From Shimia abyssi (GTDB taxonomy: Bacteria; Pseudomonadota; Alphaproteobacteria; Rhodobacterales; Rhodobacteraceae), in the NCBI RefSeq assembly GCF_003014475.1, contig NZ_PYGJ01000003.1, positions 186,001 to 250,000 of the forward strand: 64,000 bases of DNA, in the 5' to 3' direction. The position numbers were made by a program, and so were the translations under genes. Positions 17,866-34,702 of this stretch are shown one piece after another (the first letter of the stretch is position 1; every line of letters starts with the position of its first letter). The notes below the pieces were generated by a model, which saw nothing but the letters and a program-made list of their open reading frames with translations, did no database searches and was not told the DNA's origin.

Positions 17866-19016
17866 TGTGGCGCCATATCGCCTCGAACGCGATCACGATG
17901 ATGATCGTGGTGGTGTTTCTTTTAGGCGGCGTAATTTTGTTTGGCCAGTCGCAATACACTGCTGAGGGGCCGCTGGGCGCGCCAATTTGCCTTAGGGTGG
18001 AACCCGGCTCAAATATGAGCCGTGTTTCGAAAGACCTTGAGTCACAAGGGGCGATTTCAAGCGGGACACTGTTTCGTTTAGGTGCAGAGTATTCGGATAA
18101 GTCGTCTTCGTTGAAGGCCGGAAGTTTTCTGGTGCCTGCGGGTGCGTCAATGGAAGACATCACCGAGATTGTAACACGTGGTGGCGCCAATACGTGTGGT
18201 ACTGAAATTGTCTATCGCGTTGGTGTGACACGCCAAAGCGTTCAGGTGAGAGAGCTGGATCCGGCGACGGGTCGTTTTGTGGAAGTTGCTGTGTTTGATC
18301 CATCCAAAGGTGAAACACCGGACGTCTATGCACAAACGAAAGCACAATCGGATACGCGGTATCGCATTGCCATGGCAGAAGGTGTGACCAGCTGGCAGGT
18401 TATGGATGCGCTGAACAATGTTGACGTTCTAAGTGGCGAGATTGAACGGCCCGAAGAAGGTGCGTTGGCACCGGACAGTTACGAAGTGCGCGCAGGAGAT
18501 ACACGTGCCAGTGTGATCGCGCGTATGGAAGAGGCACAGCGTGTTTTGCTTGCCGCGGCGTGGGAAAGTCGCGCCGACGATGTCCCACTTTTGTCGCCGC
18601 AGGATATGCTTATTCTGGCGTCGATCATTGAAAAGGAAACCGGGGTACCGGAAGAACGCGGGCAGGTGGCCAGCGTGTTTGCAAATCGCTTGAAGCGCGG
18701 GATGCGCCTGCAAACTGACCCGACAGTCATTTACGGCATAACACAGGGCGAAGGTGTGCTCGGACGTGGCTTGCGGCAGAGTGAGCTTCGTCGAGAAACG
18801 CCATGGAATACATACGTTATTTCAGGCTTGCCTCCCACTCCGATTGCGAATCCGGGGCGAGCAAGCTTGGAAGCGGCTGCAAGTCCAGACACGACCGAAT
18901 ATGTGTTTTTTGTTGCGGATGGAACCGGCGGGCATGCTTTCGCCACGACATTGGCAGAGCACAATCAAAACGTTGCGCAGTGGCGGAAAATTGAGGCTGA
19001 GCGCGCCAATCAATAA
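17865..19016 (+). CDS. mltG: Endolytic murein transglycosylase MltG
   Basis: 383-aa inner-membrane enzyme that cuts nascent glycan strands and sets their length. It has one N-terminal membrane helix (about residues 6-26), a LysM-like region and the YceG catalytic domain. The predicted catalytic Glu is in ASIIEKETGVPEERGQVASV, followed by the conserved FANRLKRGMRLQTDPTVIYG block and GLPPTPIANPG. The gene follows fabF directly, an arrangement I would expect in this order. Confidence 0.95.
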   Translation: MWRHIASNAITMMIVVVFLLGGVILFGQSQYTAEGPLGAPICLRVEPGSNMSRVSKDLESQGAISSGTLFRLGAEYSDKSSSLKAGSFLVPAGASMEDITEIVTRGGANTCGTEIVYRVGVTRQSVQVRELDPATGRFVEVAVFDPSKGETPDVYAQTKAQSDTRYRIAMAEGVTSWQVMDALNNVDVLSGEIERPEEGALAPDSYEVRAGDTRASVIARMEEAQRVLLAAAWESRADDVPLLSPQDMLILASIIEKETGVPEERGQVASVFANRLKRGMRLQTDPTVIYGITQGEGVLGRGLRQSELRRETPWNTYVISGLPPTPIANPGRASLEAAASPDTTEYVFFVADGTGGHAFATTLAEHNQNVAQWRKIEAERANQ

Positions 19017-19480: not shown

Positions 19481-19816
19481 ATGACCTTACAATCCCCGCC
19501 AGAGGGCGCTTCGGATTTATATCGGCATGTTGGCGAGCTTCGCCAATCTTTGAAAGATATGACGCGAACGTTGGGACGGCTGAAAGGCGGCTGTCCGGCG
19601 CGCACATCATTTGAGATTGGAGATATTCGCCGTTTGCTGGAGGAAACCCGGACGTGCATTCGATTGGCGATAGAGATGGAGAAGCGCTTTGAAATTCGTA
19701 AGCAAGAGGAAGGTGGTGGAATTGGCCCTGCCATCAACCTTAATGAGGCACGGGCTTCGATCGGGTGCCGATTGGATCGCCTCAGAGCCTGCCGAGGTAC
19801 AAACGGAATTTCTTGA
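19481..19816 (+). CDS. GTA gp1, small terminase-like protein
   Basis: 111-aa protein at the position of orfg1 of the Rhodobacter capsulatus gene transfer agent, proposed as the small terminase subunit that helps the large subunit engage DNA. It has a helical central part (residues about 12-75) with LKDMTRTLGRLKG and IRRLLEETRTCIRLAIEMEKRFEIRK, fitting a helical oligomer. The ATG at 19481 is one of three nearby; it is preferred for the GAGAGG about 15 bases upstream, but the start is uncertain. It overlaps gp2. Confidence 0.8.
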   Translation: MTLQSPPEGASDLYRHVGELRQSLKDMTRTLGRLKGGCPARTSFEIGDIRRLLEETRTCIRLAIEMEKRFEIRKQEEGGGIGPAINLNEARASIGCRLDRLRACRGTNGIS

Positions 19817-21098
19817 GGCATTGTCGGAGGGAGAGCTTGTTGCTCTCCCTTTTTTATTCGACTTCTGGGCGTTGCCACATCAGGTGCCGCCCGAAGGGAA
19901 CTGGAAGACGTGGGTGATCCTGGGTGGACGCGGCGCGGGCAAAACGCGCGCTGGGTCGGAATGGGTGCGCACGAAAGTGGAAGGGTCTGGACCCTTGGAT
20001 GTGGGGAGCGCCAGCCGTGTCGCGCTGGTTGGGGAAACCATCGACCAAGTGCGCGAAGTAATGGTGTTTGGTGACAGCGGGATTATTGCGTGTTCGCCGC
20101 CTGACCGAGTGCCGGTTTGGGAGGCCGGGCGCAAGCGGCTGGTTTGGCCAAATGGGGCCATCGCGCAAGCGTTTTCGGCGCACGACCCTGAGGGGCTGCG
20201 TGGCCCACAGTTTGATGCGGCCTGGGTGGACGAGCTGGCAAAGTGGCGAAATGCGCAAGAGACGTGGGACATGTTGCAGTTTGGTTTACGGCTTGGTGAG
20301 CATCCGCAGCAATGCGTGACAACAACACCGCGAAATGTTGCGGTGCTGAAGGATCTATTGAAACGAGAGAGCACGGTGCAGACAAGTGCGCCAACAGAAG
20401 CAAACCGGGCTTATCTGGCGGACAGCTTTCTGGAGGAAGTACGTGTCCGATATGAAGGGACTCAGCTGGGGCGACAAGAACTGGATGGTGTTCTTTTGGA
20501 CGAACCCGAAGGCGCGCTGTGGTCGCGCAAGGCGATTGATGCGGGGCGGTTGAAGAAAGCACCTGAATTGGATCGGATCGTCGTGGCGGTTGATCCGCCT
20601 GTCACAGGGCATTCAGGCTCCGATGAATGCGGCATCGTGGTGGTTGGCGCGAATACGTCGGGTGCGGTCAAGGACTGGCGGGCGGTGGTGCTTGACGATG
20701 CCTCGGTTCGGGCAGTGAGCCCTGACGGATGGGCCCGCGTGGCCATTGCCGCTATGGAAAGCTGGGGCGCAGATAAATTGGTTGCTGAAGTCAACCAAGG
20801 TGGCGATTTGGTTCAGTCTGTAATCAGGCAAGTCGACCCTTTGGTTCCCTACAAGGCTGTGCGCGCATCGCGAGGTAAAATCGCGCGGGCGGAACCTGTG
20901 GCTGCATTGTACGAGCAGGGGCGTGTGCAGCATTTGACGGGTCTTGATACCTTAGAAGATCAGATGTGCGCCATGTCACAGCAGGGGTTTCAGGGATCGG
21001 GCAGCCCGGACCGGGTGGATGCGCTGGTTTGGGCGCTGACTGAACTGATCGAGGAACCGTCTGCTAAATGGCGCCGACCTCAGTTTCGTTCACTCTGA
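19716..21098 (+). CDS. GTA gp2, large terminase subunit
   Basis: About 460-aa DNA-packaging motor ATPase and nuclease of the GTA. Walker A GGRGAGKT lies at residues 70-77 and the Walker B segment AAWVDE ends at about residue 173. The C-terminal nuclease domain has acidic motifs in VVAVDPPVTG, AEVNQGGD and PDRVDALVWAL. The GTG at 19716 is preceded by AGAGGAAG; TTG 19689 or ATG 19743 are alternatives. It overlaps gp1 by about 100 bp. The reading frame is intact. Confidence 0.93.
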   Translation: MELALPSTLMRHGLRSGADWIASEPAEVQTEFLEALSEGELVALPFLFDFWALPHQVPPEGNWKTWVILGGRGAGKTRAGSEWVRTKVEGSGPLDVGSASRVALVGETIDQVREVMVFGDSGIIACSPPDRVPVWEAGRKRLVWPNGAIAQAFSAHDPEGLRGPQFDAAWVDELAKWRNAQETWDMLQFGLRLGEHPQQCVTTTPRNVAVLKDLLKRESTVQTSAPTEANRAYLADSFLEEVRVRYEGTQLGRQELDGVLLDEPEGALWSRKAIDAGRLKKAPELDRIVVAVDPPVTGHSGSDECGIVVVGANTSGAVKDWRAVVLDDASVRAVSPDGWARVAIAAMESWGADKLVAEVNQGGDLVQSVIRQVDPLVPYKAVRASRGKIARAEPVAALYEQGRVQHLTGLDTLEDQMCAMSQQGFQGSGSPDRVDALVWALTELIEEPSAKWRRPQFRSL

Positions 21099-21239
21099 TT
21101 GCTGCGCAACGGGCACAGAGCGGTGCCGTCGGCGCGTTTTAAGACCTATCTGCGATAACTTTTCTTGTCCAAAGCGGACAGAGGATTTGGGTGCGGTACC
21201 AAAAGGCGGCGCATCGAAAAAGCTTAGGAGCGTCAGACG

Positions 21240-21287
21240 ATGGTATTTGATTTCTTTCGGCGGGGGGCCGCAGACGTGCCCGAGTAA
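21240..21287 (+). pseudogene. Original 5' end of the GTA portal gene, ended by TAA
   Basis: ATG at 21240 has a good ribosome-binding site (TAGGAG at 21224-21229) and encodes MVFDFFRRGAADVPE, which matches the usual start of GTA portal proteins. Codon 16 is TAA (21285-21287). The same frame then continues without another stop through KASATGPVVAWQGAG into the long portal frame. This is a nonsense mutation and not a frameshift. Confidence 0.85.
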
Positions 21288-21335
21288 AAAGCAAGCGCAA
21301 CCGGGCCGGTTGTCGCATGGCAGGGCGCAGGGCGT

Positions 21336-22421
21336 GTGGCATGGAGCCCACGCGATACTGTGTCTCTTACGCGGACAGGTTTTTCGGGCAATCCCGTAGG
21401 CTATCGTTCGGTGAAACTTATTGCAGAAGCTGCGGCGGCGCTGCCGCTGGTGCTTCAAGATAAAATGCAGCGCTTTGAGAGCCATCCGATTTTGGGCCTG
21501 GTGAATGCACCTAACGCAGCGCAAGGGCGGGCCGAGCTGTATGAAGCGCTTTTTGGTCAGTTGTTGTTATCAGGAGATGCATACGTCGAGGCGGTCGGGG
21601 CGGAAAACGGTGTGCCACTGGAATTGCATGTGCTGCGGTCAGACCGGATGAGTGTTGTTCCGGGTGCGGATGGGTGGCCGGTTGCCTATGAATATGCAGT
21701 AGGCGGGCGAAAACACCGGTTTGACGCGAGCGGGTTGTCACCGGTTTGCCATATCAAGAATTTCCACCCCCAAGATGATCATTATGGGTTTTCGCCAATG
21801 CAAGCGGCGGCGATGGCATTGGATGTGCATAACAGTGCATCGCGCTGGTCCAAGGCGCTGTTGGACAACGCGGCGCGTCCATCAGGAGCAATTGTTTACA
21901 AGGGGGCTGAAGGGCAGGGCAGTCTGAGCAGCGACCAGTATGATCGGTTGGTCAATGAGATGGAGAGCCATCATCAAGGCGCGCGCAATGCAGGGAGACC
22001 TATGCTGCTTGAAGGCGGATTGGATTGGAAGCCAATGGGGTTTAGCCCCAGCGACATGGAATTTCAGAAAACCAAAGAGTCCGCAGCACGTGAAATTGCG
22101 TTGGCGTTTGGAGTGCCTCCGATGCTTTTGGGCATCCAGGGTGATGCGACCTATGCCAATTACCAAGAGGCGAACCGCGCATTCTACCGATTGACGGTCT
22201 TGCCGCTGGCGACGCGGGTTTCAGCCACTGTTGGGCACTGGCTTTCGACACTGACAGGTGAAGAAGTGTCGCTGAAACCCGATCTGGATCAGGTGCCTGC
22301 CTTGTCGGCTGAACGTGACGCGCAATGGGCGCGTGTCGCGCGGGCGGATTTTCTGACTGTCGAAGAGAAGCGTGCGCTATTGGGACTTCCGGCGCAAGCA
22401 GATGGGGACCTTGATGAGTGA
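21336..22421 (+). CDS. GTA gp3, portal protein (5'-truncated by a nonsense codon)
   Basis: HK97-family portal protein that forms the ring through which DNA enters the capsid. From the GTG at 21336 it is 361 aa; the intact gene (21240-22421) would give 393 aa with codon 16 as TAA. The frame downstream of the TAA keeps portal motifs, for example SPRDTVSLTRTGFSGNPVG, KLIAEAAAALPLVL and LAFGVPPMLLGIQGDATYANYQEANRAF. The GTG has only weak upstream purines, so reinitiation would be poor. If translated, the protein lacks about 32 N-terminal residues. I judge the gene functionally damaged but cannot prove it. Confidence 0.85.
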   Translation: MAWSPRDTVSLTRTGFSGNPVGYRSVKLIAEAAAALPLVLQDKMQRFESHPILGLVNAPNAAQGRAELYEALFGQLLLSGDAYVEAVGAENGVPLELHVLRSDRMSVVPGADGWPVAYEYAVGGRKHRFDASGLSPVCHIKNFHPQDDHYGFSPMQAAAMALDVHNSASRWSKALLDNAARPSGAIVYKGAEGQGSLSSDQYDRLVNEMESHHQGARNAGRPMLLEGGLDWKPMGFSPSDMEFQKTKESAAREIALAFGVPPMLLGIQGDATYANYQEANRAFYRLTVLPLATRVSATVGHWLSTLTGEEVSLKPDLDQVPALSAERDAQWARVARADFLTVEEKRALLGLPAQADGDLDE

Positions 22422-22641
22422 GCAACGCTATGGGTTTGAACAATTCGACTGCGCGCCTGCGCTGAGGTTGGAGGCACATGAGCGCGTGGCGAAATTGCAG
22501 TTTGATGGCCTTAACCGAAGGCTCGACAAGATAGAAGAGCTGATTGAGCGACTGGAGAAGCGATTGTGGCTGACGGTGTATGGAGTGGTTGGAGTGATCC
22601 TTGCGCAAGCGTTTCAATCGTTGCTGAGTGCTGCGCCGTAA
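22414..22641 (+). CDS. GTA gp3.5-like small membrane protein
   Basis: 75-aa protein in the position of orfg3.5. It has a charged helical N-terminal part (ERVAKLQFDGLNRRLDKIEELIERLEKRLW, probably a coiled coil) followed by one membrane helix near the C-terminus (LTVYGVVGVILAQAFQSLL). Its ATG overlaps the end of the portal gene. Its role in GTA assembly is not known. Confidence 0.75.
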   Translation: MSEQRYGFEQFDCAPALRLEAHERVAKLQFDGLNRRLDKIEELIERLEKRLWLTVYGVVGVILAQAFQSLLSAAP

Positions 22642-22663
22642 GTGAGATGTGAAAGGGATGCTG

Positions 22664-23221
22664 ATGGAAAGTGAATATGAGCTTGAGCGCAAGTTCGCGC
22701 GGTTTGGCGACGGGTTGAGTGTTGCGGATGGTGCGGTGATCGAGGGCTATGCCTCTTTGTTTGGGCAAGTTGATCAGGGCGGTGACGTGGTGCAAAAAGG
22801 CGCATACGCGGCGTCGCTCAAGGCGCTGGCGGCGGCGGGGCGGCAGGTGAAGATGCTGTGGCAGCACGATCCGGCCCAACCGATTGGCATCTGGGACGAG
22901 GCCCACGAAGATGAAACTGGCCTTTGGGTCAAGGGGCGTTTGCTTGACGATGTGGCCAAAGGCCGTGAGGCGGCAAGCCTGATTGAGGCGGGCGCAATTG
23001 ACGGGTTGTCGATCGGCTATCGCACGGTCAAGGCGACAAAGACTGACAGGGGCCAGCGGCTCTTAACCGAACTGGAGCTGTGGGAAGTGTCATTGGTGAC
23101 GTTTCCGATGTTGCCCAGTGCGCGGGTGGCGGCAAAGGGGGAAACCTCGGAAAACGACGTTGCCCTGCGTGAATTGGCGGCGGCCTTTGAGGGCGCCCGT
23201 CGCGAGCTGACGCGAGAGTAG
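22664..23221 (+). CDS. GTA gp4, HK97-type prohead protease
   Basis: 185-aa protease that matures the GTA capsid. ATG 22664 is chosen because AAAGGG lies 6-8 bases upstream; an ATG two codons earlier is also possible. His68 in MLWQHDPAQPIG and Ser116 in AIDGLSIGYR fit the herpesvirus-type His-Ser protease pair of this family. Placed between the portal and capsid genes as expected. The frame is intact. Confidence 0.92.
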   Translation: MESEYELERKFARFGDGLSVADGAVIEGYASLFGQVDQGGDVVQKGAYAASLKALAAAGRQVKMLWQHDPAQPIGIWDEAHEDETGLWVKGRLLDDVAKGREAASLIEAGAIDGLSIGYRTVKATKTDRGQRLLTELELWEVSLVTFPMLPSARVAAKGETSENDVALRELAAAFEGARRELTRE

Positions 23222-23252
23222 CGTCAGCAACACCTCTAACAAGGATTTTTAG

Positions 23253-24434
23253 ATGAGTACGACCGAGATGAAGGCTCGGGCCGGAGAAGGTTTGTCTCCG
23301 GTGGCCGAGGTGAAGTCCGCCGTGGCGGGTTTCATGAATGACTTCAAAGACTTCTCACACGACATTGATGACCGCTTGAAGAAACAGGACGAACGAATGA
23401 CCATGATTGAACGCAAATCTCTGACCGCAGCACGACCCGTTTTGGCAGCTGCGACCGATTTTGACGCCCCTCACCAGAAGGCTTTCAATGCCTATCTGCG
23501 ATCGGGTGAAGACGATGGCCTGCGTGGGCTTGAGTTGGATGGCAAGTCGATGTCGACTGCTGTGAACAGTGACGGCGGCTATCTGGTGGACCCGCAAACC
23601 GCTGACAGTGTTAAGAACGTTTTGAATACCACCGCTTCGATCCGGGCGATTGCCAATGTGGTCAATGTCGAGGCTGGCTCGTTTGACGTGCTGATCGACT
23701 CGAGCGAGGCCGGCGCCGGTTGGGCTGACGAGACTTCGGGCACAACCGAAACAGGTACGCCCAATATTGAGCGCATCACCATTCCGCTGCATGAGCTGTC
23801 AGCGCTGCCCAAAGCGTCGCAACGCCTGTTGGATGACCGTGCGTTTGATATCGAGGCATGGTTGGCTGGTCGTATCGCGGACAAGTTTGCGCGAGCAGAA
23901 GCAGCGGCCTTTATCAATGGCGATGGTGCTGACAAGCCAACCGGTTTTTTGAATCATGCGACCGTCGATAACGACGTTTGGGCTTGGGGTAATATTGGCT
24001 ATGTGCCAACCGGTGTGGATGGTGACTTCAATGGCGGTGATGCCATAATTGATCTGGTTTATGTGCTGGGTGCCCAGTACCGCGCGAACGGCACATTTGT
24101 GATGAACTCCAAAACAGCCGGCGCGGTGCGCAAGCTTAAGGACGCTGATGGCCGTTTCCTGTGGTCCGACGGTCTGGCAGCTGGTGAACCTGCACGACTG
24201 CTGGGCTATCCGGTGCTGATCGCCGAAGATATGCCCGACATCGCGTCTGGTGCGGATGCAATTGCCTTTGGTTATTTTAACGCCGGGTACACCGTGGCCG
24301 AACGCCCAGATCTGCGCGTGTTGCGCGACCCGTTCAGCGCGAAACCGCATGTTCTTTTCTATGCCACTAAACGCATTGGCGGTGACGTGAGCGACTTCGC
24401 TGCGATCAAGCTGCTGCGCTTCTCGGCTTCCTAA
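23253..24434 (+). CDS. GTA gp5, HK97-type major capsid protein
   Basis: 393-aa capsid protein. The first ~105 residues are a charged helical propeptide/delta region (MNDFKDFSHDIDDRLKKQDERMTMIERK) that is cut off by gp4 in the family. The mature HK97 fold follows, with the typical GGYLVDPQTADSVKN start and AFINGDGADKPTGFL in the middle, and ends with FYATKRIGGDVSDFAAIKLLRF. The frame is intact. Two hairpins follow directly. Confidence 0.94.
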   Translation: MSTTEMKARAGEGLSPVAEVKSAVAGFMNDFKDFSHDIDDRLKKQDERMTMIERKSLTAARPVLAAATDFDAPHQKAFNAYLRSGEDDGLRGLELDGKSMSTAVNSDGGYLVDPQTADSVKNVLNTTASIRAIANVVNVEAGSFDVLIDSSEAGAGWADETSGTTETGTPNIERITIPLHELSALPKASQRLLDDRAFDIEAWLAGRIADKFARAEAAAFINGDGADKPTGFLNHATVDNDVWAWGNIGYVPTGVDGDFNGGDAIIDLVYVLGAQYRANGTFVMNSKTAGAVRKLKDADGRFLWSDGLAAGEPARLLGYPVLIAEDMPDIASGADAIAFGYFNAGYTVAERPDLRVLRDPFSAKPHVLFYATKRIGGDVSDFAAIKLLRFSAS

Positions 24435-24468
24435 AGCCGAGTTGGCGAGGGCGGAGAATCCGCCTTCG
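24423..24468 (+). repeat. Tandem hairpins at the end of the capsid gene
   Basis: Hairpin 1 pairs TCGGCTT (24423-24429) with AAGCCGA (24434-24440), spanning the capsid stop codon. Hairpin 2 pairs CGAGGGCGGA (24446-24455) with TCCGCCTTCG (24459-24468), one G-U pair, loop GAA. Neither has a T-run. They may stabilise the capsid mRNA or lower expression of the genes after it. Confidence 0.6.
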
Positions 24469-24561
24469 TTCGGGCGCGCGCCGGAAACCTTACGTTGTCC
24501 AGCCGTTCCCCTCCGTTCGAGCGACGTGAGGGCGCGCGCCCAGTTTTTGTTGGAGGGTGAA

Positions 24562-25176
24562 ATGCGGAGTTTTTCCATGATGTTAGTCGAAGAGACCTCG
24601 GTGTCGCCGTCGGCTCTGCCGGTTGATGAATTCAAAGCCCACCTTAGAATGGGCAGCGGATTTGCCGATGAAAGCCTTCAGGACAGCGTTCTGGAAAGCT
24701 TTTTGCTGGCAGCGATGAGTGCAACTGAAGCCCGCACCGGGAAGGTGCTGATTGAGCGCTGTTTTGCGTGTTCGCTCGCGGGTTGGCGCGGCGGCGCTGC
24801 GCAGGGATTGCCAGTTGCACCGGTCAACGCAGTCACAAGTGTAACTCTGAGCGATAGCGAGGGCGGAACCGTTACTGTCTCGCCTAGTGCTTACTATTTG
24901 GTAGCTGATGCACAGCGTCCAGTGCTGAAGAGCAAAGGATCTTGTTTGCCGGCGGTGCCGACAGACGGTTCTGTCACGGTGCGGTTCGTCGGAGGGTATG
25001 GCGCGTCGTGGTCTGATGTGCCCTCAGATCTGCAACAGGCCGTCTTGCTGCTTGCCGCGCATTATTACGAGTGCCGGCACGAGACATCGCTCAAGAGCGG
25101 GTGCATGCCGTTTGGCGTCACAAGTTTGCTGGAACGGTATCGGCCCGTGCGTCTTCACATGGGGGGCGGTGTCTAA
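24562..25176 (+). CDS. GTA gp6, head-tail adaptor protein
   Basis: 204-aa protein of the phage connector family (phiE125 gp8-like), which binds under the portal. ATG 24562 is preceded by TTGGAGGG; the open frame upstream has no support. The helical N-terminus (VDEFKAHLRMGSGFADESLQD, then LLAAMSATEARTGKVLIER) is typical of this family. It overlaps gp7 by one base (TAATG). Confidence 0.87.
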   Translation: MRSFSMMLVEETSVSPSALPVDEFKAHLRMGSGFADESLQDSVLESFLLAAMSATEARTGKVLIERCFACSLAGWRGGAAQGLPVAPVNAVTSVTLSDSEGGTVTVSPSAYYLVADAQRPVLKSKGSCLPAVPTDGSVTVRFVGGYGASWSDVPSDLQQAVLLLAAHYYECRHETSLKSGCMPFGVTSLLERYRPVRLHMGGGV

Positions 25177-25511
25177 TGGGCGTGCATCTATCACGGCAAT
25201 TGGTTCTGGAACAGCGCGAGACAGTGCCGGACGGCATGGGCGGAAGTTCAGAAAGCTGGAGCGCACTTGGCACGCTTTGGGCCGGGGTCGAAGGGCGCAG
25301 CGGGCGCGTGCGCCGAGTGGGTGACACGGAAATGGCCTCGGTCGGATTTAGGATCACGGTTCGCGGCGCCCCTTATGGCGCTCCGTCGCGACCGGTAGCT
25401 GGTCAGCGATTTCGCGAAGGGCAACGGGTCTTTCGAATTGACGCTGTGAGCGAGGCTGACCCGCAAGGGCGCTATTTGATCTGTTTTGCGAAGGAGGAAT
25501 TGGCCGCATGA
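25176..25511 (+). CDS. GTA gp7, head closure protein
   Basis: 111-aa protein of the phage head-tail joining family. It is mostly beta (LVLEQRETVPDGMGGSSESW, then ITVRGAPYGAPSRPVAGQRF, and a final RIDAVSEADPQGRYLICFAKEE), as expected for a stopper that closes the filled head. Its start overlaps the gp6 stop and its end overlaps the gp8 start (ATGA). Confidence 0.85.
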   Translation: MGVHLSRQLVLEQRETVPDGMGGSSESWSALGTLWAGVEGRSGRVRRVGDTEMASVGFRITVRGAPYGAPSRPVAGQRFREGQRVFRIDAVSEADPQGRYLICFAKEELAA

Positions 25512-25924
25512 GTTATGGAATGGCGGATGTCTTGCAGGCGGCGGTTTATCAAACGTTGATTGCAGACCTGACATTGGACGGGATCGTGTCCGGTGCGATT
25601 TACGATGAAGTCCCAAGCGGGACTGTGCCGACGACATATGTCACGTTGGGAACTGAAATGGCATTGGACCGTTCCGATGCAACCGGCGATGGGGCTGAAC
25701 ACCGGTTCACGGTGTCAGTTGTCTCCGGTGCCAGTGGGTTTTCACTAGCCAAGCAGGCGGCAGCCGCAGTGAGCGATGCGCTGCATCGTGCTGACCTGTC
25801 CCTATCACGTGGGCAACTGATTTTTCTGAATTTCGATCGGGCAAAAGCCAAGCGCGACACCGCGAACAGCTTGCGGCGTATCGATCTGAGTTTCCGCGCG
25901 CGCGTGGAAGACGACCAACTGTAA
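25508..25924 (+). CDS. GTA gp8, tail terminator (DUF3168)
   Basis: 138-aa protein of the DUF3168 family, which in tailed phages ends the tail tube and joins it to the head. It shows the LQAAVYQTLIADL N-terminal helix and the TYVTLGTEMALD strand typical of the family. ATGA overlap with gp7. The frame is intact. Confidence 0.85.
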   Translation: MSYGMADVLQAAVYQTLIADLTLDGIVSGAIYDEVPSGTVPTTYVTLGTEMALDRSDATGDGAEHRFTVSVVSGASGFSLAKQAAAAVSDALHRADLSLSRGQLIFLNFDRAKAKRDTANSLRRIDLSFRARVEDDQL

Positions 25925-25940
25925 CCATTGGAGACACACT

Positions 25941-26354
25941 ATGAGTGCTCAAAACGGAAAAGACTTGTTGATCAAAGTGGATCTGACCGGCGACGGGCAG
26001 TTCGAAACAATTGCGGGACTGCGCGCAACACGGGTCAGCTTTAACGCCGAAAGTGTCGATGTAACGTCGCTGGAGAGCCAGGGAGGATGGCGTGAGTTGT
26101 TGAGTGGTGCCGGTGTGAAATCAGCTGGCATTTCGGGGTCTGGGGTTTTTAAGGATGCCAGTACCGACGAGCGCACCCGTCAGATTTTCTTTGACGGTGA
26201 AACGCCAGACTTCCAAGTCATTATTCCCGACTTCGGCGTCGTAGAAGGGCCGTTTCAAGTGTCATCCATCGAGTATTCAGGCACGCATAATGGCGAAGCA
26301 ACCTATGAGCTTGCCATGGCGTCGGCGGGTGCACTGACGTTTTCGGTGCTCTGA
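25941..26354 (+). CDS. GTA gp9, major tail tube protein
   Basis: 137-aa tail tube protein of the TP901-1 major tail type. It begins MSAQNGKDLLIKVDLTGDGQFETIAGLRA and includes the SVDVTSLESQGGWRELLSGAG segment and a GEATYELAMASAG C-terminus, all common in GTA tail proteins. Ribosome-binding site GGAGA is upstream. The frame is intact. Confidence 0.9.
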   Translation: MSAQNGKDLLIKVDLTGDGQFETIAGLRATRVSFNAESVDVTSLESQGGWRELLSGAGVKSAGISGSGVFKDASTDERTRQIFFDGETPDFQVIIPDFGVVEGPFQVSSIEYSGTHNGEATYELAMASAGALTFSVL

Positions 26355-26355
26355 T

Positions 26356-26682
26356 ATGGCTAATCCATTCGCAGGTGAGGTGGAACTGGTGATCGACGGC
26401 GAGGTGCGCGTGCTCAAGCTGACGCTCGGAGCGCTTGCTGAACTGGAGGCCGGGCTGTCGAGTGGCACGTTGGTTGAGCTGGTCGAGCGATTTGAAGGTG
26501 GCGCGTTTTCTTCGCGAGACGTGCTTGCCCTGATCGTTGCCGGGTTGCGCGGTGGTGGCTGGAATGGTCGCTCGCGGGATCTGATGACGGCTGAGATTGA
26601 AGGCGGCGCCATGCAGGCAGCGCGCGTCGCCGCGCAATTGTTGGCCAAGGCATTTATTACACCGGAGAGTGAGGCGGTTTGA
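26356..26682 (+). CDS. GTA gp10, tail assembly protein
   Basis: 108-aa protein at the orfg10 position, belonging to the GTA-specific tail assembly (gpG-like) family. It begins MANPFAGEVELVIDGEVRVLKLTLGALAELE, typical of this family, with a helical C-terminal half. It starts two bases after the gp9 stop and overlaps gp10.1. In phages the matching pair makes a chaperone for the tape measure. Confidence 0.82.
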   Translation: MANPFAGEVELVIDGEVRVLKLTLGALAELEAGLSSGTLVELVERFEGGAFSSRDVLALIVAGLRGGGWNGRSRDLMTAEIEGGAMQAARVAAQLLAKAFITPESEAV

Positions 26683-26888
26683 GTGCGTTTGATTGGCCGG
26701 CGTTGATGAAAGTCGCGTTTCAGGGTTTGCGCATGGAACCAACCCGGTTCTGGGCACTGACACCAGCAGAGTTTGCAATGATGTTAGGGCGTTCTGGCGC
26801 CCTGACACCCCTGACCCGATCCGGGTTGGACAAATTGTTGGATGCCTATCCCGACACAGATTTGGGGAACGAACATGACAGAGATTGA
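26679..26888 (+). CDS. GTA gp10.1, small tail assembly chaperone
   Basis: 69-aa protein starting with TTG at 26679 (TTGA overlap with gp10). The motif FDWPALMKVAFQGLRMEPTRFWALTPAEF is characteristic of the GTA tail assembly chaperone (TAC) family. It overlaps gp11 by 14 bases. The frame is intact. Confidence 0.83.
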   Translation: MSAFDWPALMKVAFQGLRMEPTRFWALTPAEFAMMLGRSGALTPLTRSGLDKLLDAYPDTDLGNEHDRD

Positions 26889-27534
26889 TGGCCTGGACGG
26901 CCTTGATACGCAGATCGAAGCGCTGGAGGTCAGCCTTGGGCAAACCACAGCCGTGGCGGCCGGATTTGATGGCGAATTGCGGCGCATGCGCGATGCTTTG
27001 GGCGCTACGGGGCAAGACGTCGCTGCGTTGGAAAAGGGCATTGGGCGCGGGTTGAGAAAAGCATTCGATGGGTTGGTTTTTGATGGTCAAAAGCTGTCAG
27101 ACGCGCTCGAAGACGTGGCAAACTCAATGGTCGAAGCTGCGTATCGAGCGGCGTTGACGCCTGTCACGGATCAAGTCGGCGGGGCGATTGTGACAGGTAT
27201 TGGCGGGTTGATGGAGGGCTTGTTGCCTTTCGCCAATGGCGGCAGCTTTGCGCAGGGACGTGTGATGCCATTTGCCAATGGCGGCGTTGTTTCCGGCCCT
27301 GTCACATTTCCGATGCGGGGTGGCTTGGGGTTGATGGGCGAGGCCGGACCCGAGGCGATCATGCCCTTGGCCCGGGGTGCGGACGGCAAATTGGGCGTGC
27401 GCTCGGAAACTGGGCGCCCCGTAAATGTCGTGATGAAAATTAGCACACCAGATGTGGACGGTTTTCGACGTTCGCAAGGCCAGATTGCAGCCCAGATGGG
27501 GCGTGCTCTGGCGCGTGGTCAGAGAAACCGGTGA
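26875..27534 (+). CDS. GTA gp11, tape measure protein
   Basis: 219-aa protein that sets GTA tail length; it is short, as expected for the short GTA tail. The N-terminal half is helical (DTQIEALEVSLGQTTAVAA). The middle is rich in Gly (GGAIVTGIGGLMEG, FANGGSFAQGRVMPFANGG) and the part near GPEAIMPLARGADGKLGV is common to phage tape measures. ATG 26875 has GGGGAACG upstream. The frame is intact. Confidence 0.88.
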   Translation: MTEIDGLDGLDTQIEALEVSLGQTTAVAAGFDGELRRMRDALGATGQDVAALEKGIGRGLRKAFDGLVFDGQKLSDALEDVANSMVEAAYRAALTPVTDQVGGAIVTGIGGLMEGLLPFANGGSFAQGRVMPFANGGVVSGPVTFPMRGGLGLMGEAGPEAIMPLARGADGKLGVRSETGRPVNVVMKISTPDVDGFRRSQGQIAAQMGRALARGQRNR

Positions 27535-27549
27535 CAGAGAGGAAATACG

Positions 27550-28182
27550 ATGAATTTTCATGAAGAGCGTTTTCCCGCGAACCTGAGTTTTGGTTCGATT
27601 GGTGGCCCGGAACGTCGGACCGATGTGGTTACGCTGGCCAATGGTTTTGAGGAACGTAATACGCCCTGGGCGCATTCCAGACGACGTTATGATGCGGGTG
27701 TGGGGATGCGGTCGCTCGATGATATTGAAATTTTGATTTCATTTTTTGAAGCGAGACGTGGCCAGTTGCATTCCTTCCGCTGGAAGGATTGGTCAGACTA
27801 TAAGTCATGTATTGCATCGGTTGACGTAGACTTTCGTGATCAGGTTATCGCACAGGGTGATGATGTCACAACGTCCTACCAATTGGTAAAGACGTATCGG
27901 TCCGGCACGTATTCATATCAGCGTCCGATTGCTAAACCGGTAGCAGGAACCGTGCGTGTTGGCGTGTCCGGTGACGAGCTGCGCGAGGGGGTTCATTTCT
28001 CGTTAGACGAAACGACTGGTCACATTGTTCTGAACGAAGCGCCGGGGCCAGAAGCAGAGATCACAGCGGGGTTCGAGTTCGACGTTCCCGTTCGCTTTGA
28101 TACAGATCGTATTCTGACCAGTGTCGCGAGTTTTCGCGCAGGTGACGTTCCAAACGTGCCTGTTGTGGAGGTGCGTATCTGA
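27550..28182 (+). CDS. GTA gp12, distal tail protein (DUF2460)
   Basis: 210-aa protein of the DUF2460 family, the distal tail protein at the tail tip. It has the typical MNFHEERFPANLSFGSIGGPERRTDV start, FFEARRGQLHSFRWKDWSDYKS in the middle, and a beta-rich C-terminus. It overlaps gp13 by one base (TGATG). The frame is intact. Confidence 0.9.
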   Translation: MNFHEERFPANLSFGSIGGPERRTDVVTLANGFEERNTPWAHSRRRYDAGVGMRSLDDIEILISFFEARRGQLHSFRWKDWSDYKSCIASVDVDFRDQVIAQGDDVTTSYQLVKTYRSGTYSYQRPIAKPVAGTVRVGVSGDELREGVHFSLDETTGHIVLNEAPGPEAEITAGFEFDVPVRFDTDRILTSVASFRAGDVPNVPVVEVRI

Positions 28183-29069
28183 TGAGTACTCAACAGGAAT
28201 TATATGATCATCTGGAGACTGGCCTTACGACCATTGCGCGCGCATGGGGCATTGTCCGGTCTGACGGCGCGCGATTTGGGTTCACGGACCATGATTGCGA
28301 TCTAAGTTTTGAAGACTTTCAGTTCAAAGCATCAAGTGGTGTTACGGCGTCGTTATTGGAGCAGAGTTCCGGGCTTTCGGTTGACAACTCTGAGGCCCTT
28401 GGAGTGCTCAGCGACTTTGGGGTCAAGGAAGCTGACATCCTTGCCGGACGGTTTGATGATGCTCAAGTTACCGCATGGATGGTCAATTGGGCAAACCCAG
28501 ATGCGCGCACAGTTATTTTTCGCGGAAGCATTGGCGAGATCGGCCGATCCAACGGCGCTTTTCGCGCGGAATTGCGCGGGCTCTCAGAAGCCATGAATAG
28601 GCCCTTAGGGCGTGTTTTCCAGAAACCGTGCACAGCCGTTTTAGGTGATACCACGTGCCGTTTTGACACTGCCACGGGCGGTTATTCTCATCTTGCTGCG
28701 ATTGAAGAGACAGATCAGAAACGGGTTTTTTCGTGGAATAATTTGTCAGATTTTGAGCCCGGCTGGTTTATTGGTGGCGTCCTTCAAGTTAAGAGCGGCG
28801 CTGCCAATGGGCTGTCTGGGAACGTCAAGCGAGACTATGTCGGTGCGAATGGGCTCCGGGTGGTTGAGCTGTGGGAACCAATTCGGGTGCCTATATCTGT
28901 TGGTGATCAGGTTCGCTTGGTGGCGGGGTGCGACAAGCGGTTTCAAACCTGTCGTCTGAAGTTCAATAACGCGCTTAATTTCCAAGGGTTTCCAGATATT
29001 CCTGGTGAAGATTGGATGACGTCCTTTCCGTCGCAAGGGGGAGAAAACTCAGGTGGGAGTCTGCGCTGA
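28182..29069 (+). CDS. GTA gp13, tail hub protein (DUF2163)
   Basis: 295-aa protein of the DUF2163 family (phage BR0599-like), forming the hub under the distal tail ring. Four cysteines stand in two pairs in the C-terminal half: Cys150 and Cys159 (KPCTAVLGDTTCRF), Cys250 and Cys257 (GCDKRFQTCRL). I recall an iron-sulfur cluster being described in this hub in R. capsulatus, and these pairs would suit one; that link is from memory. The frame is intact and overlaps gp14 by one base. Confidence 0.88.
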   Translation: MSTQQELYDHLETGLTTIARAWGIVRSDGARFGFTDHDCDLSFEDFQFKASSGVTASLLEQSSGLSVDNSEALGVLSDFGVKEADILAGRFDDAQVTAWMVNWANPDARTVIFRGSIGEIGRSNGAFRAELRGLSEAMNRPLGRVFQKPCTAVLGDTTCRFDTATGGYSHLAAIEETDQKRVFSWNNLSDFEPGWFIGGVLQVKSGAANGLSGNVKRDYVGANGLRVVELWEPIRVPISVGDQVRLVAGCDKRFQTCRLKFNNALNFQGFPDIPGEDWMTSFPSQGGENSGGSLR

Positions 29070-29509
29070 TGGTAGAGTTTTCCAACCGGATCATCTCGGA
29101 AGCCCGAAGTTGGATCGGGACGCCGTATGTGCATCAGGCGTCTTGCAAAGGTGGCGGTACCGATTGTTTGGGGCTGGTACGTGGTGTTTGGCGTAGTCTC
29201 TATAGAAACGAGCCCGAATTGGTGCCGGCCTATAGTCGTGACTGGTCAGAACCGCAGGGCGACGAGCGATTGTGGCGCGCGGCGGCAAGCCATATGATGT
29301 CAAAATCGATCAGTGATGCAAGCCCTGGCGACTTGTGATTGTTTCGAATGAAAGACGCAGGTGTTGCAAAACATTTGGGTATTCAAAGTCGGGGCGGCAG
29401 CACGCCTTATTTCATTCACGCATATTCCGGTCATGCGGTCATAGAAAGCCCGCTGAGCGTCCCATGGGGACGCCGGATCGTGGCATGTTTTGAATTTCCA
29501 AGGAGATAA
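29069..29509 (+). pseudogene. GTA gp14, NlpC/P60 tail peptidase gene with in-frame TGA
   Basis: The intact frame would encode a 146-residue NlpC/P60 cell-wall peptidase used by the GTA tail to pass the host murein. ATG 29069 starts MVEFSNRIISEARSWIGTPY, and the catalytic Cys33 is in GGGTDCLGLVRGVW. Codon 90 is TGA (29336-29338), right after SPGDL. The same frame then continues LFRMKDAGVAKHLGI (the region with the catalytic His) to a natural end, CFEFPRR, with TAA at 29507-29509. The 89-aa product therefore lacks the catalytic His and should be inactive. gp15 follows two bases later, so the gene boundaries are otherwise normal. Confidence 0.88.
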
Positions 29510-29511
29510 TT

Positions 29512-31656
29512 ATGGCGACAGTCGTATTGGCCGCTGCGGGAGCAGCGATTGGAGGGACCCTTGGTGGCGGTGTCGCAGGTGTTTCAGCTCTAGCAGTTGG
29601 GCGACTGGCTGGCGCAACCGTTGGACGCGTTATTGACCAAAAAATTCTGGGGTCAGGGTCGGAAGCTGTTGAAAGTGGAAAGGTCGATCGGTTTGGAATT
29701 AGCGGATCTGCCGAAGGCTCGACAACTGCGCGGGTTTTTGGGCGTATGCGTGTTGCTGGGCATTTGATCTGGTCCTCCCAGTTCACGGAGGCCGTTTCAA
29801 CAACGGGCGGCGGCAAGGGTGCGCCCTCACAACCAACGGTCAGGGAATATAGCTATGCGGTTTCGCTGGCTATTGCGGTTTGCGAAGGTGAAATTCGATC
29901 CATTGGTCGAATTTGGGCCGATGGCACAGAAATCGCGCTAAATGATCTAAATTTGCGAGTCTATACTGGAAGCCCAGAGCAAATGCCTGATCCAAAGATC
30001 GAAGCCGTGGAAGGTGCAGGAACGGTTCCTGCATATCGTGGCACGGCATATGTCGTGATCGAAGACCTGGCGTTGGAAAGGTTCGGCAACCGCATCCCTC
30101 AGTTCAGCTTTGAGGTTGTGAAGGGAACGCCGGATGATATACGCGACGCGTCCTCGGATATGGCAAACAGTGTCCGTGCCGTTGCGTTGATGCCCGGCAG
30201 TGGCGAATACGCGCTTGCCACATCAACAGTGCGTCTACCTGTCGGGCCAGCAGAATACAAAAGCGTGAACGAAAACTCTCCGTCTGGGCAAAGTGATTTT
30301 CTGACGTCGATGGAACAGTTGCAGACCGAGCTGCCGAATGTGGGGTCCGCGTCATTGATTGTCAGCTGGTTTGGCGATGACCTTCGTGCGGCGGAATTTG
30401 ACCTACGACCCAAAGTTGAGCAAAAGCTGAGCGATGGCGACTCCATGAAATGGGAGGTCGCCGGTTTGTCGCGCAATGAAGCCGAAGAGCTGGCGCAAGT
30501 CCAAGGGCGGGCTGTTTACGGTGGCACGCCATGTGATGCATCAGTCGTCGAGGCAATCACGCATCTCAAGGAAACTGGCAAGGACGTGGTTTTTTATCCA
30601 TTTATCCTGATGGAACAGATGGAAGGAAACGGATTGCCAGATCCGTGGAGCGAGGCAGCGAACCAACCTAAACTACCTTGGCGGGGGCGCATAACGCAGT
30701 CAGTTGCACATGGGCGGGTCGGATCGCCGTCTGGAACGGCCTTGGCGGATCAAGAAGTTGCAGCCTTTTTTGGCACGGCATCGGCAAGCGATTTTGCCGT
30801 GCAAAATGGGCTTGTCGCGTATGCCGGCCCGGACGAGTGGCGATACAGACGGTTTATCCTGCATAATGCGGCGCTTTGTGCGTCGGCTGGTGGTGTGGAT
30901 GCGTTTTGCATCGGTTCCGAGATGAGAGGTTTGACGCAGATTTTGGGTGTGAACGGCTTCCCTGCGGTGCAAGAGTTGCGTGCCGTCGCGGCCGACGTGC
31001 GCCAGATTTTGGGGCCGGACACAAAAATCGGGTATGCGGCGGACTGGAGCGAGTATTTTGGTTTTCATCCTCAGGATGGCACGGGTGATATCTATTTCCA
31101 TCTCGATCCACTTTGGGCTGACGAAAACATCGATTTCATTGGCATTGACAACTACATGCCGCTGTCGGATTGGCGAGACGGTAAGGGGCACCTGGATGCA
31201 CAACAATGGCCGTCAATTTACGATTTGGGATATCTGAGTGGAAATATTGAAGGCGGCGAGGGGTATGAGTGGTATTACCATTCAGACGAAGCTCAAGACG
31301 CTCAAATCAGAACAGCCATTTCAGATGGCGACCATAATGAGCCCTGGGTGTTCCGCTATAAAGATATTCGCAATTGGTGGAGCAATGAACATCACCAACG
31401 CATTGGTGGCGTTCGTCAGAAGGTCGCGACTGACTGGTTGCCGGGTAGCAAACCGATTTGGTTTACCGAAATCGGTTGTGCGGCTGTCGATAAGGGTACG
31501 AACCAGCCTAACAAATTTCTGGATCCCAAATCCTCGGAATCTTCGCTACCGCATTTTTCAAATGGCGGGCGGGATGCATTCATTCAGCAACGCTATTTGC
31601 AGGCCATGCAAAACTATTGGAGTTTGGACGAAAACAATCCAAAGTCAGAAGAGTAA
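29512..31656 (+). CDS. GTA gp15 N-terminal part (TIM-barrel half), ended by an in-frame TAA
   Basis: 714-aa N-terminal half of the large tail-tip protein (host specificity protein, orfg15). It opens with a hydrophobic, Gly/Ala-rich segment (VVLAAAGAAIGGTLGGGVAG) and contains the GTA TIM-barrel-like domain, with FCIGSEMRGLTQI near residue 470 and IWFTEIGCAAV near residue 650. The frame stops at TAA 31654-31656, after AMQNYWSLDENNPKSEE. Homologues are normally one chain of about 1300 residues, and the frame reopens at once (see next entry). The TAA stands where homologues, as I recall them, have Tyr (VYxGxM), one base from TAT or TAC. Confidence 0.87.
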   Translation: MATVVLAAAGAAIGGTLGGGVAGVSALAVGRLAGATVGRVIDQKILGSGSEAVESGKVDRFGISGSAEGSTTARVFGRMRVAGHLIWSSQFTEAVSTTGGGKGAPSQPTVREYSYAVSLAIAVCEGEIRSIGRIWADGTEIALNDLNLRVYTGSPEQMPDPKIEAVEGAGTVPAYRGTAYVVIEDLALERFGNRIPQFSFEVVKGTPDDIRDASSDMANSVRAVALMPGSGEYALATSTVRLPVGPAEYKSVNENSPSGQSDFLTSMEQLQTELPNVGSASLIVSWFGDDLRAAEFDLRPKVEQKLSDGDSMKWEVAGLSRNEAEELAQVQGRAVYGGTPCDASVVEAITHLKETGKDVVFYPFILMEQMEGNGLPDPWSEAANQPKLPWRGRITQSVAHGRVGSPSGTALADQEVAAFFGTASASDFAVQNGLVAYAGPDEWRYRRFILHNAALCASAGGVDAFCIGSEMRGLTQILGVNGFPAVQELRAVAADVRQILGPDTKIGYAADWSEYFGFHPQDGTGDIYFHLDPLWADENIDFIGIDNYMPLSDWRDGKGHLDAQQWPSIYDLGYLSGNIEGGEGYEWYYHSDEAQDAQIRTAISDGDHNEPWVFRYKDIRNWWSNEHHQRIGGVRQKVATDWLPGSKPIWFTEIGCAAVDKGTNQPNKFLDPKSSESSLPHFSNGGRDAFIQQRYLQAMQNYWSLDENNPKSEE

Positions 31657-31665
31657 GAGGGCCGG

Positions 31666-33729
31666 ATGATTGATGTGACCCGAAGCCATGTGTGGGCTTG
31701 GGATGCACGTCCGTTTCCGCATTTCCCACACAATCTAACGGTCTGGTCGGACGGTGAGAACTACCGTGCCGGGCATTGGATAAATGGGCGAAGCGGTAAT
31801 CGCACATTAGAGAGCGTGGTGTCTGAAATCTGTAAGCGTGCAGGCGTTGACACCTTCGATGCGAGCCAGCTCATCGGTGTCGTAAACGGTTATGTTCATG
31901 ACGAAGTTTCCGACGCCCGGTCGGCCCTGCAACCCCTCATGGTAGCATATGGGTTTGATGCGATTGAACGGAATGGGTGCATTTTGTTCCGGATGCGCGG
32001 CACTAGCGACCCAGTTGATTTGGAAGTCGACTCCGTCGCCGTTTCGTCATCAAATTCCGAAATCATTGCAAAAGATCGCGAAGCAAATGTCGAGATTGCC
32101 GGGCGCTTGCGGCTGAATTTCGTGCAAGCGGGTGGCGCGTTCGAGGCAATTTCGGAAGAGGCGATCGACTCGGCTGAACTAACGAATTCGGTTGCTGCTA
32201 GTGAAATGCCCCTGGTGCTTTCGCGTGGTGAAGGGCGTCAGATTCTGGAAAGATGGTTGGCCGAAGCCAAGGTTGGGCGCGAGCGTGTAAAGTTTTCACT
32301 TCCTCCGTCCAAATTTGGCTTGGGTGCAGGGGACGTAGTCGCCCTGAAAGGGGATGGTCAGATTGATCAACTCTATAGAATTGATCGCGTCGAGCAGGGT
32401 GATTCCCAGTTGGTTGAAGGGCTTGCTATCGAACCATCGGTCTACGAAAAAACCGACCTTACGGAAGAGTTGCCGCGCGCATCGGCGTATGTCCCACCTG
32501 TTCCTGTGACCTCGCTGTTCATGGATTTGCCGCTGTTGACAGGGGACGAAGTACCCCATGCGCCTCATATTGCGGTGACAGCAAAACCTTGGCCTGGTTC
32601 GGTTGCGGTGTACGATTCCGCAACGGACAGCGACTATGCTCTGAACAAAATCATCAACAGTCGGGCGATCATGGGGGTGACCGAGACACCACTTTTGGCT
32701 GCGCGACCGGGTCTGTTTGACAATGGAACAGAACTCCAAGTCAAAATGATCTCTGGAAACCTGCAGGGTGTTTCGCAAGAACAGCTGTTTTCCGGGCGCA
32801 ATCTTATGGCGATTGGTGATGGGGCGAACGGCAGTTGGGAGTTATTCCAGTTTGAGGAAGCCCAGCTTGTCGGCCCCGGGCAATACTTGTTGAGCAAACG
32901 ATTGCGCGGCCAGCTTGGCTCTGATGCTGGAATGCCTGATGTTTGGCCAACCGGTAGTTGGGTTGTACTGGTCGATGGCAATATTGAGCAAATCGACCTA
33001 TCCGCCGCATCACGCAACATCGCGCGTAATTTTCGCATTGGATCTGCACGCCAAAGTCTTGATCATAGTTCCTATCGGAATAGCTCCGAGGCGTTTGCTG
33101 GAATTGGCTTGAGACCATACTCTCCGGTACATTTGCAGGCCTCGCGTGCAACAAATGGGGATGTCGCATTGAACTGGATCCGGCGGTCGAGAATTGATGG
33201 GGACAGCTGGGAGTTCCCTGAAATTCCCTTGTCTGAAGAGACCGAGCAGTACTTGGTTCGCATTTCCAAATATGGTTCGGTTTTGCGAGAGACGACGGTT
33301 TCTAGCCCATCGTGGCTCTATTTGCACAGTGAACAACTTTCAGATGGCGCGAGTGATGCATTTGACGTGGAAGTTGCGCAAGTATCTGCCCGCTTTGGTC
33401 CGGGTGCCTTCGGAAAATTGGAGGTCAGCTGGATGTGGCGTGTCCTTGCGGGGGACATCGTTGCTGTGGCGCGTTGGTTGCAAACATTACCGCAAGGTCA
33501 GCGCGCTCAAGCTGTTGAGGACGTCATTGAACGCGCCTCAGCGGCACACAAGTTTTTTCGTCGATTTGGACGATCCCATCCAGATTGGGGAAACGGGTCT
33601 CTATATGGAGCCATTACTATGCCGGGAGCCGGGCCGGAGCCGAGCTTCTCTAACGTAGAATATTGCAGATCGACTGCGCTGGTCTTGATGAAACTAACGC
33701 AATTTCGAGAGTTTTCGGCAGGTCGGTAA
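31666..33729 (+). CDS. GTA gp15 C-terminal part (tail-fibre half), same frame after the TAA
   Basis: 687-aa C-terminal half of gp15. It lies in the same frame as the N-terminal half, and only one stop codon plus GAG-GGC-CGG separate them. It begins MIDVTRSHVWAWDARPFPHF, which is internal sequence in normal gp15 proteins. The rest matches phage tail-tip domains. GAGGG at 31657-31661 precedes ATG 31666 by four bases, so this half could be made as a separate polypeptide. Whether two chains can replace one is unknown. gp15 ends the GTA cluster. Confidence 0.85.
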   Translation: MIDVTRSHVWAWDARPFPHFPHNLTVWSDGENYRAGHWINGRSGNRTLESVVSEICKRAGVDTFDASQLIGVVNGYVHDEVSDARSALQPLMVAYGFDAIERNGCILFRMRGTSDPVDLEVDSVAVSSSNSEIIAKDREANVEIAGRLRLNFVQAGGAFEAISEEAIDSAELTNSVAASEMPLVLSRGEGRQILERWLAEAKVGRERVKFSLPPSKFGLGAGDVVALKGDGQIDQLYRIDRVEQGDSQLVEGLAIEPSVYEKTDLTEELPRASAYVPPVPVTSLFMDLPLLTGDEVPHAPHIAVTAKPWPGSVAVYDSATDSDYALNKIINSRAIMGVTETPLLAARPGLFDNGTELQVKMISGNLQGVSQEQLFSGRNLMAIGDGANGSWELFQFEEAQLVGPGQYLLSKRLRGQLGSDAGMPDVWPTGSWVVLVDGNIEQIDLSAASRNIARNFRIGSARQSLDHSSYRNSSEAFAGIGLRPYSPVHLQASRATNGDVALNWIRRSRIDGDSWEFPEIPLSEETEQYLVRISKYGSVLRETTVSSPSWLYLHSEQLSDGASDAFDVEVAQVSARFGPGAFGKLEVSWMWRVLAGDIVAVARWLQTLPQGQRAQAVEDVIERASAAHKFFRRFGRSHPDWGNGSLYGAITMPGAGPEPSFSNVEYCRSTALVLMKLTQFREFSAGR

Positions 33730-33898: not shown

Positions 33899-34702
33899 AT
33901 GGCTGAGAGACGCGCTAAGGTTACCGAACTCGATCCAGTCTGGAGCCGCATTACGTCGGAAGCGGAAGAGGCGGTGAAAGAAGAACCCTTAATGGGGGGG
34001 CTCGTGCATGCTTGTGTTCTTCATCACAAGTCAATTGAACGCGCCTTGAGCTACAGGTTTGCAGCCAAGCTATCTTCGAATGAAATGTCGATGGTCGTCC
34101 TCCGGGAAGTTGCGGACGAAGCATTTGTATCTGACCCTTATCTTGCTGAAGCGGCCCGGGCAGATTTGATGGCAGTCTATGATCGTGATCCTGCCTGTCA
34201 TCGGTTGTTGCAGCCGATTTTGTATTTCAAAGGATATCAGGCCATGCAGGCCTATCGCATAGGGCACTGGCTGTGGCACCAAGGCAGGCACGACCTGTCT
34301 TACTTTATTCAAATGCGTACATCTGAAATATTCGGCATCGACATTCATCCGGCTGCCAAAATCGGAAAAGGCATCATGATCGACCACGCCCACTCAATTG
34401 TCATTGGTGAAACTGCGATCGTTGGCGACAATGTGTCGATGTTACACTCAGTTACACTTGGTGGAACTGGCAAAGAGGAAGAAGCACGGCACCCCAATAT
34501 CGGTGATGGGGTCTTGATCGGCGCAGGTGCAAAAGTGCTAGGCAACATTTCGGTTGGGCATTGCAGCCGTATCGCAGCCGGTTCCGTTGTTCTTCAGGAA
34601 GTGCCGCCGTGTTCCACTGTTGCTGGCGTTCCAGCAAAAATCGTAGGCGAAGCAGGTTGTCCGCAGCCTGCTGTCGAAATGGACCAAATACTGCAGCGCT
34701 GA
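33899..34702 (+). CDS. cysE: Serine O-acetyltransferase
   Basis: 267-aa cytoplasmic enzyme that acetylates L-serine with acetyl-CoA, the first step of cysteine synthesis. ATG 33899 follows AAGGAAG. It has the helical N-terminal domain (residues about 8-140) and the left-handed beta-helix of hexapeptide repeats (IHPAAKIGKGIMIDHAHSIVIGET, HPNIGDGVLIGAGAKVLGNI). The catalytic His is in DHAHS. A cysE directly after gp15 is the arrangement known in Rhodobacter capsulatus and supports the GTA assignment. Confidence 0.96.
   Translation: MAERRAKVTELDPVWSRITSEAEEAVKEEPLMGGLVHACVLHHKSIERALSYRFAAKLSSNEMSMVVLREVADEAFVSDPYLAEAARADLMAVYDRDPACHRLLQPILYFKGYQAMQAYRIGHWLWHQGRHDLSYFIQMRTSEIFGIDIHPAAKIGKGIMIDHAHSIVIGETAIVGDNVSMLHSVTLGGTGKEEEARHPNIGDGVLIGAGAKVLGNISVGHCSRIAAGSVVLQEVPPCSTVAGVPAKIVGEAGCPQPAVEMDQILQR

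Follow-up and report, generated by a model that had tools for sequence, protein, structure and literature searches.

A probably recently disabled RcGTA-like gene cluster in Shimia abyssi and apparent lesions in DNA uptake genes of the same genome

In Rhodobacter capsulatus, ComEC, ComF and ComM import the DNA carried by gene transfer agents (GTAs), and DprA and RecA integrate it, as stated in two papers citing Brimacombe and others (PMC10883770, PMC6473078). PMC10883770 moreover places comEC, comF, dprA and a DUF2793 gene among the genes co-evolving with GTA genes, names cysE1 as a GTA-linked gene of R. capsulatus and reports pseudogenised and lost GTAs, read there as possible cheaters. We analysed a stretch of 64,000 nucleotides of the Shimia abyssi genome (the window; positions 186001-250000 of contig C3 in assembly G000, which comprises 4.73 Mb in 48 contigs) containing a cluster that has gene content and gene order in common with RcGTA of R. 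capsulatus and the RcGTA-like GTAs of Rhodobacterales. It differs from RcGTA in having stops within gp3, gp14 and gp15 and in lacking the terminator of gp15. Recent disabling mutations are a feature it shares with the pseudogenised alphaproteobacterial clusters of PMC10883770, from which it is set apart by the apparent breakage of comEC and dprA in the same genome, a case not described in the accessible parts of that source. We consider it likely that this RcGTA-like cluster has only very recently become non-functional and that, in the same lineage, the receiving side is in decay as well.

Identity and gene order of the cluster

Stop-to-stop frames in the window, combined with tblastn searches gene by gene against 11 named loci and the GTA regions of the remaining 24 genus members, place gp1 to gp15 in canonical order on the forward strand, bearing out the preliminary description, according to which all of them are present and in order. 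The cluster lies between two genes which we take to be mltG upstream (17865-19016, with 74-82% identity and the same place in genus genomes having this end on the contig) and cysE downstream (33899-34702, open). Its first member is a gp1-like frame of 111 amino acids (19481-19816) identified by its position and by 31-46% identity to genus relatives, the NCBIfam profile search giving no family match for gp1. It is followed by the open gp2 large terminase (19689-21098), matching a terminase model below its cut-off, and by the gp3 portal (21240-22421). Frames and genus alignments support a series of further open genes: gp3.5 (22402-22641), the gp4 prohead protease (22664-23221), the gp5 major capsid protein (23253-24434), the conserved part of the gp6 head-tail connector (24571-25176), gp7 to gp10 with a small frame after gp10 (25176-26888), the gp11 tape measure protein (26875-27534) and gp12 and gp13 (27550-29069). 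The gp14 NlpC/P60 peptidase (29069-29509) and the gp15 megatron, in an N-terminal (29512-31656) and a C-terminal part (31657-33432), complete the set.

NCBIfam matches exceed the curated cut-off for the gp3 portal, gp4 protease, gp6 connector, gp11 RcGTA tape measure and gp14 NlpC/P60 proteins and for the N-terminal part of the gp15 megatron, the C-terminal part of which scores below it. Thus, both RcGTA-specific families, RcGTA_tape (gp11) and GTA_megatron (gp15), are present over their cut-offs, and the portal and gp15 of the window match solved chains of RcGTA. The same neighbours flank the cluster in genus relatives wherever they are on the contig, showing that it is passed on vertically at a constant site in the chromosome. 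The window forms one clade with its sisters G001 and G007 (support 1.0 in the GTA tree, 0.71 in the flank tree), the branching order inside this trio differing between the two trees. A genome-wide search of G000 for second copies returned a single portal locus and a single gp15 locus. In terms of descent, the cluster belongs to the RcGTA-like gene transfer agents.

In IMG/VR, a gene related to that for the GTA capsid is present on 289 stretches. Among the 80 loci fetched from there (L072-L151), at least 12 match GTA regions of genomes in this study at 99% identity or more, indicating that GTA regions are filed in that collection as viral contigs.

Lesions inside the cluster and their age

Direct reading confirmed that three genes carry a single in-frame stop each, as described before, in frames that are otherwise open and conserved: gp3 a TAA at codon 16 (21285-21287), gp14 a TGA at codon 90 of 146 (29336-29338) and gp15 a TAA at codon 715 (31654-31656). 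That these are stops and not frameshifts was likewise upheld by a frameshift search inside the cluster, which found none. Past the stops, the same frame continues with clear similarity to G001, gp3 being 90% and gp15 64% identical. The gp15 stop replaces a Tyr found in 34 of 34 aligned relatives and the gp3 stop a Gln found in both sisters, and full-length alignments have V, I or L where the gp14 stop lies.

We identified a fourth lesion, absent from the preliminary description, in which the native terminator of gp15 is now a sense codon (33430-33432); neither this loss nor the stops at the gp3, gp14 and gp15 sites occur in any of the relatives aligned there. In relatives, gp15 ends near codon 1306, in some with a small gene directly next to it. 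Because its native stop is lost, gp15 reads on into this gene, which is separate in relatives and assigned to DUF7742 by alignment and family match (33433-33729), so that position 33729, given earlier as the end of the cluster, marks the end of a gp15-DUF7742 fusion instead of that of gp15. The earlier statement that most frames are clean accordingly holds as to their being otherwise open, but not as far as the terminator at 33729. The position of the DUF7742 gene directly after gp15 in several relatives suggests that it may belong to the GTA operon and has so far been overlooked there.

The lesions differ in their expected effect. In gp3, an in-frame GTG at 21336 offers a possible restart, and this lesion alone may be leaky. 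The gp14 stop removes the C-terminal third, truncating the protein to positions 1-82 of a 134-position model, and the gp15 break falls inside the GTA_TIM domain, with profile positions 1-273 of 299 before and 279-299 after it. A functional GTA is expected to have all structural genes intact, and here gp3, gp14 and gp15 are not. Judged from the reading frames, full-length gp14 and gp15 would not be made, and hence working particles would probably not be formed.

The preliminary description had alternatively considered regulated read-through or a split system, and we consider it extremely improbable that the stops in gp15 (and in gp3 and gp14) are recoded, passed by programmed read-through or part of a functional split. 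A few bases past the gp15 stop there is an ATG at 31666 preceded by GAGG, so that the second half could be translated, and the conservation of the frames would also fit such a model. It is contradicted by the conserved Tyr at the gp15 site, by the restriction of the stops to this genome among the aligned relatives, by the interruption of GTA_TIM and the loss of a third of gp14, and by three genes being affected with two kinds of stop. Among the gp15 matches listed in a family-wide search, in which 223 of 246 genomes gave a match and 204 exceeded the cut-off, stops are confined to G000 and G255. No suppressor occurs among the 39 tRNAs found in G000, a set without tRNA-Tyr and some others.

Regarding the age of the event, the inactivation appears recent because the window branch is not accelerated, the branch lengths in the GTA protein tree being 0.226 for the window and 0.223 for its sister G001. 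The dN/dS comparison proposed in the preliminary description gave concatenated values (NG86) of 0.071 and 0.100 between the window and its sisters and of 0.122 between the sisters, at dS of 1.5 to 2.9, the synonymous distances of several genes being partly saturated or undefined; the ratio is not raised, which shows only that the event is too young to be visible in rates. Nonsense accounts for about 3.5% of single changes in the 4,566 codons. Three nonsense codons would thus be expected after about 86 neutral substitutions (18 to 253), i.e. 0.6% per site (0.1 to 1.8%), under assumed neutrality and counting nonsense codons alone. The earlier reading as a recently inactivated GTA is well supported by the unshared stops, the lost terminator, the unraised branch rate and the repeated losses in the genus. 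Speaking against our account, dN/dS is not raised, the cluster contains no frameshift, and the genes otherwise appear to be maintained still.

Receiving genes outside the window and the genomic background

We searched four uptake families, comEC, dprA, comM and comF, in 25 genomes of the genus, one per species, having picked them to test the idea of a cheater before their state was known. The comEC open frame comprises 517 amino acids in G000 compared to 677-881 in the other 24 species, and that of dprA 340 compared to 384-433 in the other species. Relative to G001, comEC has lost one base near codon 478 of 682, beside a run of T (G000 C3, 294121-296165), and dprA two bases near codon 63 of 386, with no homopolymer (L259, 8215-9370); among the 25 species these frameshifts are present in G000 only. 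The remaining comEC frame retains the competence domain, and dprA still has about 323 conserved codons in a single frame, where translation could start anew. Both genes look broken, which suggests that the species may have left the exchange system altogether. The comM, comF, holin and DUF6456 genes of G000 are intact, as is, read by eye, an endolysin-like frame (in L199), which we assume to be the endolysin. The DUF2793 gene was considered as a further part of the loss and rejected: it is missing in G000, but also in G001, G003, G015, G019 and G023, and because only 19 of 25 genomes have it, its absence was not counted.

These data bear on an explanation, following the reading in PMC10883770, according to which the lineage is a cheater that has stopped particle production and kept the uptake of DNA from producing neighbours. 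The broken production genes and the intact comM and comF genes agree with it, and the seven other GTA-broken species, which keep full-length comEC and dprA frames, may fit cheating themselves. A cheater would have intact reception genes, however, and in G000 comEC and dprA are frameshifted, comM and comF being intact; S. abyssi therefore does not look like a cheater, and we judge this explanation unlikely.

To see how common lesions are elsewhere, we checked the conserved frames of G001 against contig C3, 200 kb of contig C1 and 18 kb of contig C5 of G000, together about 1/7 of the genome, replacing a first survey that had caught few genes (35 shared). Among 200 frames conserved with G001 (128, 61 and 11 on the three stretches), lesions were found in gp15, gp3, comEC and dprA only, plus one artefact, a flag in gp5 that reflects an upstream extension. 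The gp14 lesion emerged solely in the comparison with G007. Once 11 GTA frames, comEC, dprA and comM are set aside, none of 186 other frames is broken relative to G001. With G007 (127 frames), eight further flags arose and were rejected as upstream extensions or antisense frames, because an intact and better conserved frame spans each of the spots; frames in the sisters are flagged by this method too, which thus has a false-positive rate. Two random lesions among 185 genes and four uptake genes would both fall in uptake genes about 3 times in 10,000, a figure resting on two events only.

Sequencing or assembly errors might be suspected, the lesions being known from a single draft assembly of 48 contigs and the comEC deletion lying beside a run of T. 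A second strain was sought in IMG/VR, and the only stretch obtained is identical to the window and probably derives from the same assembly, providing no independent check. The concentration of four substitution-type lesions in 14 kb, as opposed to none in the 186 G001-conserved frames outside the GTA and uptake genes, and the dprA change of two bases outside a homopolymer make errors very unlikely as the cause. Equally improbable in our view is genome-wide decay or a mutator lineage having no special tie to GTA exchange. The lesions outside the cluster, in comEC and dprA, would be expected in such a lineage, and the absence of any other broken conserved frame on the sampled stretches and the genome of G000 being the largest of the 25 listed both oppose it.

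We favour recent loss of function of the cluster together with decay of the receiving side. Selection on the whole GTA exchange, giving as well as receiving, would have lapsed, with its parts then decaying together. Against this account stand the intact comM, comF, holin and DUF6456 genes, its derivation from one genome in one assembly, and a coupling that consists of two events.

GTA lesions in the genus and loss of exchange

GTA lesions are present in eight of the 25 species and all of them are different. Large internal deletions occur in G002, G005 and G023; G009 has a gp2 stop, a gp4 frameshift, a gp5 deletion and a gp15 stop, and G014 a gp15 stop and a broken DUF6456 gene. G015 (gp5 frameshift) and G016 (gp8 frameshift) are affected at a single site each and could be assembly errors, leaving six unambiguous cases. 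Three clusters are cut by contig ends (G013, G017 and G020), and no lesion was seen in the remaining 14 genomes. Near relatives without lesion exist for G009 (G021), G014 (G022), G015 (G010) and the window (G001 and G007). The seven other GTA-broken species thus resemble S. abyssi in carrying independent lesions in the same cluster and differ from it in the kind of lesion, theirs being large deletions, frameshifts or other stops, and in their full-length comEC and dprA frames.

Several of these loci show features of their own. In G002, the deletion joins the terminase to gp15 in frame (L045, 3271-3951), creating a frame of 878 amino acids, and in G005 the portal is joined in frame to gp15 (L048, 13249-14874) in a frame of 552 amino acids. 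The DUF6456 gene, a likely GafA/GafZ-type regulator, is frameshifted with a stop in G014 (L311, 991-2072), the genome which also has the gp15 stop. In G007, a second, diverged set of gp12-gp15 homologues is present on contig C7 (L051) and is immediately followed by a DUF2793 gene (L200), the main GTA of this genome being without lesion.

A search of an open literature library retrieved no report of joint loss of GTA and comEC, which does not prove absence; a combined loss of genes for production and for reception may be a new finding. We see the balance as even on the broader proposal that GTA exchange forms a linked trait of two parts and is lost as such, in both halves in S. abyssi and in production alone in the seven congeners with full-length comEC and dprA. 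If this is true, the genus holds two ways out of the exchange, cheating and quitting, the lesions seen all being on terminal branches, a pattern to be expected were lineages lacking a GTA short-lived. In about one third of the species of the genus the GTA bears fresh lesions, different in each, while their sisters appear intact, and one of these species has lesions in uptake genes as well; this setting makes it testable whether the losers are cheaters, quitters or inhabitants of niches in which exchange does not pay.
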